The position numbers were made by a program, and so were the translations under genes. From positions 1 through 64,000 of the forward strand of contig NZ_BBIS01000018.1 of NCBI RefSeq assembly GCF_000730605.1: DNA of 64,000 nucleotides, read 5' to 3'. This DNA is from Pseudomonas monteilii NBRC 103158 = DSM 14164 (GTDB lineage: Bacteria; Pseudomonadota; Gammaproteobacteria; Pseudomonadales; Pseudomonadaceae). Positions 23,075 to 23,341 of this stretch are shown here, piece after piece (the first letter of the stretch is position 1; each line of letters opens with the position of its first letter). Under the pieces are notes generated by a model. That model saw only the letters and a program-made list of their open reading frames with translations, was not told the DNA's origin and searched no databases.

Positions 23075-23105
23075 TTGCTGATTAGCCCGAATGGTTTGGT
23101 ATACT
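23075..23105 (+). promoter_or_regulatory. Candidate promoter of the idh leader RNA
   Basis: TTGCTG and TATACT lie 19 bases apart; transcription from here would start near 23112, giving idh a leader of about 230 bases. Confidence 0.5.
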
Positions 23106-23109
23106 GCGC

Positions 23110-23215
23110 CGCGACCGAAGGGTCATCGGGGCGAATCCCAGGAAAATGCGGACCGCCCTAGGCCATGAATGGCCGTAAAGCCTGGGCTGTTACCGCAGTT
23201 CAGCACTTGACGCTC
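23110..23215 (+). ncRNA. Structured leader RNA upstream of idh (icd-II-like motif)
   Basis: The stretch between the candidate promoter and idh is rich in structure. GACC GAAG GGTC is a tight tetraloop hairpin (23113-23124). CCCAGG (23137) can pair with CCTGGG (23181), enclosing the hairpin GGCCA TGAA TGGCC (23161-23174). TGCGG (23147) can pair with CCGCA (23193), which would make a pseudoknot. There is no credible coding frame here. A Pseudomonas RNA class called the icd-II motif was described next to isocitrate dehydrogenase genes; from memory of its context I think this is that RNA. Whether it acts in cis or in trans is not known to me. Confidence 0.5.
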
Positions 23216-23341
23216 GACTGATGCATCCACCATCACCGCTCGCAGCCTCTCGACTTTCCGCTCATGGCGTTGCCAGGGCGATGCGCCTACCCTGCGCACC
23301 ACGAGACTCGAGCACGCTCAGCACACAGAGAGTTAACCCGC

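Follow-up and report, generated by a model that had tools for sequence, protein, structure and literature searches.

Table 1 of Weinberg et al. 2010 (PMC2864571) lists an 'icd' motif from Pseudomonas with the entries '?' for RNA, 'y' for cis-regulatory and 'n' for switch, and with no Rfam accession. According to the motif descriptions in Brewer et al. 2021 (PMC8632094), this earlier motif occurs with icd genes and folds into a three-stem junction. The same descriptions introduce icd-II, represented by 25 examples, mostly from Polynucleobacter and metagenomes, which precedes an isocitrate dehydrogenase gene and has a three-stem junction with the ribosome-binding site in its closing stem, the left strand of its P1 resembling a -10 element. 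In the open-licence PMC text, we found nothing on RNA-level control of Pseudomonas idh beyond the one-line table entry of 2010. The leader analysed here resembles the icd motif, as listed and described in these sources, in that it occurs in Pseudomonas, adjoins an isocitrate dehydrogenase gene and contains a three-stem junction (P6/P7/P8). It differs from the 2010 listing in that several stems covary and that a 5' half and a possible Shine-Dalgarno-masking helix can be described, and it precedes idh rather than the divergent icd, whereas the 2010 motif is associated with icd genes in the account of PMC8632094. Compared by description, the element is likely to be the 2010 icd motif.

The leader also shares with icd-II, as that motif is described, the downstream isocitrate dehydrogenase gene, a three-stem junction and a ribosome-binding site in the putative closing stem. 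However, the partner of the ribosome-binding site lies here at 23207-23215 and the -10 element about 100 nt earlier, at 23100-23105, whereas in the icd-II description the partner strand itself resembles a -10 element. Among the family and order genomes searched, the element was found solely in Pseudomonadaceae, and icd-II is reported mostly from Polynucleobacter. A sequence-only reading of this DNA had identified the leader as a Pseudomonas icd-II RNA; in the text of PMC8632094 that name belongs to the Polynucleobacter motif, and the Pseudomonas precedent is the 'icd' entry of PMC2864571. Nor did Rfam bear out the identification, as low-threshold scans of the leader and 20 relatives gave no isocitrate-dehydrogenase motif. 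At the gathering score, Rfam 15 returned nothing but a tRNA in the window (the whole 64,000-nt stretch of DNA that was analysed) and no match in the leader; what the leader gave at low threshold resembles chance, and the scan of the 20 relatives gave just four sub-threshold cspA matches. The cspA-thermoregulator matches near idh (L115:1-233, L082:598-861, L111:561-635 and L047:2743-3071) fall in loci without a detected divergent icd and probably reflect neighbouring csp genes.

In the window, two isocitrate dehydrogenase genes, icd (minus strand) and idh (plus strand), lie back to back and divergent, with the leader elements between them. The name idh is used here for the monomeric-type NADP isocitrate dehydrogenase gene. 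The features are as follows, with their basis in brackets.

21671..22927, minus strand: icd, dimeric-type isocitrate dehydrogenase gene, divergent from idh (open reading frame list)
23097..23105, plus strand: extended -10 promoter element TGG-TATACT (TGGTATACT), ending at 23105 (sequence; TATAMT-like box in homologues)
23113..23124, plus strand: H1, 5'-terminal hairpin GACC-GAAG-GGTC, either RNA hairpin or DNA palindrome (sequence, conservation)
23128..23159, plus strand: P1 (23128-23133/23154-23159) with inner hairpin P2 (23136-23152) (MFE fold, covariation)
23161..23174, plus strand: hairpin GGCCA-TGAA-TGGCC, an insertion peculiar to the window's clade (all pairs intact in 24/36 clade leaders)
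23182..23203, plus strand: P3 hairpin CTGGGCTG-TTACCG-CAGTTCAG (covariation)
23207..23215, plus strand: P4 5' strand, candidate anti-Shine-Dalgarno TTGACGCTC (8 pairs with the Shine-Dalgarno strand)
23219..23235, plus strand: Pd hairpin TGATG-CATCCAC-CATCA with conserved loop (MFE fold)
23248..23306, plus strand: three-way junction P6/P7/P8 (covariation, MFE fold)
23248-23252/23302-23306, plus strand: P6, with an alternative 3' strand TCGAG at 23308-23312
23260-23267/23273-23279, plus strand: P7 (covariation)
23283-23286/23294-23297, plus strand: P8 (MFE fold, double events)
23328..23336, plus strand: Shine-Dalgarno region and candidate P4 3' strand GAGAGTTAA (AGAGAGT identical in 36/36 rows of alignment A3)
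23342..25567, plus strand: idh, monomeric-type NADP isocitrate dehydrogenase gene (open reading frame list; start set by homologous frames of 741-743 aa)

A structured leader for icd was rejected, since its upstream region is short and lacks a common multi-hairpin pattern in four clade alignments judged by eye. We also weighed a coding role for the region upstream of idh, as an N-terminal extension of Idh from the in-frame ATG at 23264 or as a leader peptide. The frame is indeed open for 26 additional codons in the window and is long in close relatives, but numerous homologous frames are just 741-743 aa and any frame is broken by one-base indels within the Pd block, which makes coding hardly credible. 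The N-terminal extension was rejected, since homologues do not keep the open frame before idh. Automatic gene calling could misplace the idh start at this ATG (23264-23341, plus strand), 26 codons before idh; frames longer than 741 aa occur in close relatives also.

The TATACT that the sequence-only reading placed about 235 bases before idh is present at 23100-23105, 242 nt before the ATG at 23342, and is conserved; with TG at 23097-23098, it qualifies as an extended -10 element. A simple promoter scan found 0 pairs of -35 and -10 elements. From the sequence, transcription would start near 23112, just after the extended -10. In 126/127 core loci, the start codon is preceded at 225-256 nt by a TATAMT-like box, with a GAC-N6-GTC-type palindrome directly after the box, and the -10 plus H1 palindrome occurs a single time in the window's genome. 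The tetraloop hairpin noted earlier corresponds to H1, which keeps all 4 pairs in 36/36 leaders of the window's clade and shows no phylogeny-corrected double events in the unfitted or the fitted alignment. That absence, together with the near invariance of GAC/GTC and a variable closing pair with 16 unpaired cells against 9 U-G cells, would suit H1 (TGAC-N6-GTCA beside the start) as a DNA operator for some regulator rather than an RNA hairpin. Yet the closing pair shows a T-A/C-G exchange in 30 cells, which is compatible with either reading, and the uniqueness of the -10 plus palindrome in the genome speaks against a wide regulon; we regard an operator as possible but the less probable of the two. 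Action of H1 at the DNA level is compatible with the remainder of our model. In one leader (L128:1981-2099), the 3' arm of H1 is apparently duplicated (AGTCATAGCTTAAAGTCATAG).

Of 199 genomes of the genus, 185 gave a match to the leader region in a DNA search, and a protein search found idh in 213/298 genomes of the family. The 151 collected loci were reduced by hand: two copies of the window (L001 and L032) were set aside, as were 22 poorly aligned loci from distant genera, which left a core of 127 loci in 125 genomes. One of these, L061, failed the box and palindrome pattern, so that 126 loci in 124 genomes (G025 and G174 twice), with 123 distinct leaders, were kept; runs over the collected loci took 100 (R1 search), 50 and 96 loci. 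Alignment A1 comprises 24 of the 26 clade-C leaders (L114 and L120 were left out). For the 3' half, the diverged L082, L083, L124 and L125 were left out, and alignment A3 holds 36 rows chosen from 59 representatives, including L002, which is the window's own sequence. Model R1 was built from the 24 clade-C leaders and run on 100 loci with E up to 10, giving 95 matches, 65 of them with E <0.01; the 86 matches with 85 letters or more were used. The covariation null, modelled on the idea of R-scape, was produced by our own script, using Fitch parsimony on a FastTree tree and permuting substitutions among columns per branch. Alignments fitted to a covariance model (CM) are biased toward their own structure.

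Model R2, for the 3' half, had one match in each of 272/398 Pseudomonadaceae genomes, representing 7/19 genera, and the match ended at the idh start codon in all 12 genomes compared by hand. Its match to the window arises by construction, because the window's own sequence is among the 36 of R2. Within the genus, counted over search rows, R2 was present in 83/85 genomes with idh and absent from 18/18 without it. The 18 of 103 genomes without an idh match were also without the leader, so that gene and leader are absent together. The two genomes with idh but without R2, G147 and G454, carry the diverged types of L083 and L082. At the level of the order, 12/293 genomes matched, 11 of these within Pseudomonadaceae; the twelfth match (L163) lies within other genes and was rejected as chance.

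Within the leader, positions 23112-23216 fold somewhat better than their shuffled versions (z -2.0; 9/200 equally good). When the 24 leaders of clade C were aligned without structure, H1, P1, P2 and P3 were all recovered, with both-side changes, each seen in one or more sequences, in 12 of 22 pairs. Phylogeny-corrected double events numbered 16 in this unfitted MAFFT alignment, against a null mean of 2.6 and a maximum of 8 in 200 sets, and 44 in the fitted alignment of 86 CM-aligned rows, against a mean of 6.7 and a maximum of 18. The events fell mainly on the hairpins P2 (5 unfitted, 15 fitted) and P3 (10 and 20), for which 0/500 null sets reached either count; P1 had 1 event unfitted, reached by 243/500 null sets, and 9 fitted (0/500). 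P2 and P3 covary beyond the phylogeny-preserving null, and P1 does so only in the structure-fitted alignment. Paired cells, doubly changed cells and the covariation score lay above all shuffles and slid versions in both the 5' and the 3' sets, although two of the five measures in the A3 shuffle control, and the number of both-side-changed pairs in the 5' shuffle control (113/500), were not above chance. In a MAFFT alignment of all leaders, a G-test with APC yielded no significant pair; one P3 pair had 5 double events, a count that no pair reached in 60 null sets, and low-count pairs were fewer than under the null (208 vs 329 at one or more events). In that alignment, the variable stems have probably been misaligned.

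The window's own 5' half was scored at chance by R1 (11.3 bits, E 0.96), and an R1 search of the window's own genome did not recover the leader. The 5' half has diverged in the window's own clade, where it carries an extra hairpin, GGCCA-TGAA-TGGCC, with one both-side change among the clade leaders and a gap in the other clades shown. Among the 36 distinct leaders of this clade, the window's included, all pairs are kept in P1 in 35, in P3 in 27 and in P2 in 8; 279/288 cells of P3 are paired, and four of its pairs have changed on both sides. The mean probability of P1 in the window is 0.59 when 23112-23353 is folded and 0.01 for 23112-23400, so that P1 is not predicted robustly there. The sequence-only reading had proposed a different fold, in which a closing stem CCCAGG (23137-23142)/CCTGGG (23181-23186) around GGCCA-TGAA-TGGCC (23161-23174) is crossed by TGCGG (23147-23151)/CCGCA (23193-23197). 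All of these letters are present, and both stems can form in the window. However, CCCAGG/CCTGGG has all pairs in 14/36 clade leaders (189/216 cells) with one pair changed on both sides, and TGCGG/CCGCA, intact in 33/36, shows no both-side change. The CCGCA strand belongs to P3, which excludes the crossing and which, with its both-side changes, beats its null; as a working fold the pseudoknot is very improbable and is not the conserved structure. The check for covariation, run across many pseudomonads, upheld a conserved, structured leader before idh with covarying stems (P2, P3, P6 and P7), and it went against the crossing fold.

Along the 3' half, a strand of the form (A/G)AC-x-CUC is followed by Pd, the P6/P7/P8 junction and then the Shine-Dalgarno sequence AGAGAGU. 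The free MFE fold of the window's 3' half holds P4, Pd, P6, P7 and P8. Across 15 sampled leaders, the 3' half shows no exceptional stability (mean z -0.88). In 93 CM-aligned rows, we counted 21 double events against a null mean of 2.6 and a maximum of 8 in 500 sets, including 5 in P6 and 14 in P7, neither count being reached by any of 500 null sets, and 2 in P8, reached by 27/500. P6 and P7 covary beyond the phylogeny-preserving null; the unfitted 36-row alignment of the 3' half was not significant, with 3 events vs a null mean of 2.0. Pd had zero phylogeny-corrected double events, and its middle pair is A-U, G-U or G-C and unpaired in none of 36 rows. The loops of Pd and P8 contain conserved unpaired bases. 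An alternative outer helix P5 (GGTGC/GCACG) was rejected: it has two both-side changes, but is unpaired at its ends in 12/36 rows and competes with Pd and P6. An alternative GCG/TGC pairing was likewise not kept, with no pair changed on both sides. Across the 105 pairs among 15 leaders, the conservation of block 23207-23240 (0.72) and the Shine-Dalgarno region (0.73) exceeds that of fourfold sites in idh (0.61), the block being above these sites in 92/105 pairs. Values below those of fourfold sites were obtained for the 5' half (0.51) and for the whole junction (0.57), as expected where pairing, and not sequence, is maintained.

The candidate helix P4 joins TTGAC-G-CTC (23207-23215) to GAG-A-GTTAA (23328-23336) by eight pairs and one mismatch, which are kept in 36/36 clade leaders. 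Its strands lie about 120 nt apart, and their pairing would close the junction. P4 cells are 89.6% paired in the 93 distinct CM-aligned rows; the helix is nearly invariant and shows zero phylogeny-corrected double events there. Because the Shine-Dalgarno sequence is nearly invariant, covariation in P4 could come only from distant genera, among which L102 has a ten-pair P4 helix, and UACC/GGUA in L111 and ACUCC/GGAGU in L109 are readable as P4 counterparts. In a swap test on 15 leaders, anti-Shine-Dalgarno and Shine-Dalgarno strands of the same leader bound better than swapped ones (p 0.026; p 0.105 without L102), although the windows for this test were placed by hand after the sequences had been read, and the candidate window was the best of seven in 5/15. 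With strictly one leader per genus the test was not significant (exact p 0.075, 0.179 or 0.256, depending on the choice of leader for g6), and an eight-leader set that gave p 0.043 included two leaders of one genus. The distant-genus tests of P4 are suggestive at best.

Folding predictions for P4 depend on the stretch that is folded. When the 3' half is folded alone, P4 has a mean probability of 0.80, which drops to 0.24-0.34 when the leader is folded whole; over 90 leaders, it exceeds 0.5 in 46 of the 3' halves. The whole-leader fold lacks P4, with the same Shine-Dalgarno bases pairing locally with 23315-23319; imposing P4 on 23112-23344 has a cost of 0.6 kcal/mol. Other clades have CGCTTT or CGCCC in place of the local partner CGCTC but retain the P4 strand, and further CUC stretches compete for the Shine-Dalgarno sequence. 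We regard P4 as a candidate helix that more probably forms than not. Whichever of the four stretches is folded, with or without P4, the Shine-Dalgarno bases 23327-23332 are on average only 0.34-0.38 unpaired, so that the Shine-Dalgarno sequence is predicted to be covered in either fold and no open state of it is predicted.

In our preferred reading, which we hold to be about as likely as not, the element is an idh-specific leader RNA of the Pseudomonadaceae that works in cis and controls translation by masking the Shine-Dalgarno sequence. On this model, transcription would begin just after the extended -10 and yield a leader of about 230 nt, the first 95 nt of which would fold into H1, P1/P2 and P3, and the next 135 nt into Pd and the three-way junction. 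Pd and the junction would bring TTGACGCTC against the Shine-Dalgarno strand AGAGAGTTAA, forming P4 as a closing helix that would hide the ribosome-binding site of idh. The whole-leader fold, predicted to be 0.6 kcal/mol better, would exchange P4 for the weak local pairing that is not kept in other clades. Since a fold without P4 is nearly equal in energy, it is conceivable that a signal acting on the junction and Pd region or on the 5' hairpins could set how firmly the Shine-Dalgarno sequence is held. The transcription start, P4 in vivo, an open state of the Shine-Dalgarno sequence and the direction of control are presumed in this model. The predicted arrangement is like that of Shine-Dalgarno-sequestering translational riboswitches, in which a junction is closed by an anti-Shine-Dalgarno/Shine-Dalgarno helix and an alternative fold lies near in energy; unlike them, the alternative fold of the idh leader still pairs the Shine-Dalgarno bases. 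Transcription attenuation was rejected, as the leader contains no terminator-like site.

A riboswitch would require that a small metabolite of the isocitrate branch point bind the junction and Pd region and stabilise or break P4; conceivable ligands include oxaloacetate, pyruvate, glyoxylate, 2-oxoglutarate, isocitrate and NADP(H). Such a reading is favoured by the conserved unpaired bases of the Pd and P8 loops and by a junction closed by a putative helix that contains the Shine-Dalgarno sequence. Passages on allosteric control report that IDH is activated by oxaloacetate (PMC7078475) and by oxaloacetate and pyruvate (PMC9765439), suggesting that such signals matter to IDH; a passage in PMC10574006 describes mild inhibition of both isocitrate dehydrogenase enzymes by several metabolites. 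Against this, the table entry in PMC2864571 rates the icd motif 'n' as a switch, the element serves a single gene in a single family in the genomes searched, and a distant genus seems, by eye, to be without arms P7 and P8. We consider a metabolite-binding leader unlikely, and the same holds for its fuller form, an orphan translational riboswitch of Pseudomonadaceae in which a branch-point metabolite binds the Pd/junction core and shifts the leader between the firmly masked P4 fold and a more open one.

Slightly less unlikely, in our view, is that the leader is bound by Hfq-Crc, by an RsmA-type protein or by an sRNA pairing with the conserved Pd loop, the folds serving to present the landing site. 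AANAANAR occurs near the start in 70/123 leaders and ANGGA somewhere in 48/123, but none of the 70 belongs to clade A, that of the window, and neither AANAANAA within 35 nt of the ATG nor GGA within 20 nt of it occurs in any of the 123 leaders; a strict Crc site was rejected (0/123). It is also conceivable, with as little probability as we give the riboswitch, that the stems chiefly set mRNA stability or basal translation and respond to no signal. The 5'-terminal hairpin H1, the varied sequence but maintained pairing of P2 and P3, and a Shine-Dalgarno sequence predicted to be paired in either fold would all fit such a role, whereas the conservation of block 23207-23240 above fourfold sites is more than a stabiliser requires. 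According to PMC4482717, the mRNAs of idh and icd are unaltered in mifSR mutants.

Whether the TCA cycle or the glyoxylate shunt is taken depends on flux through isocitrate, and the idh leader, under the masking model, probably tunes the amount of a key metabolic enzyme that is made. The ambiguous candidate of 2010 can now be described as an RNA in which several stems covary and the 3' core is defined, with a candidate helix for Shine-Dalgarno masking that lends itself to testing. If the riboswitch reading were true, the leader would set how flux is divided between the TCA cycle and the glyoxylate shunt.

Some diverged loci show further variation in architecture. A small clade within the genus (L082, L083, L124 and L125) has kept the promoter, H1 and the Shine-Dalgarno sequence, and its anti-Shine-Dalgarno strand and junction are strongly diverged. 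In the distant loci L047, L048, L054, L059 and L105-L108, the junction is apparently reduced to one hairpin (e.g. CTTG...CAAG), which by eye looks as if P7 and P8 had been lost and a hairpin gained before Pd.
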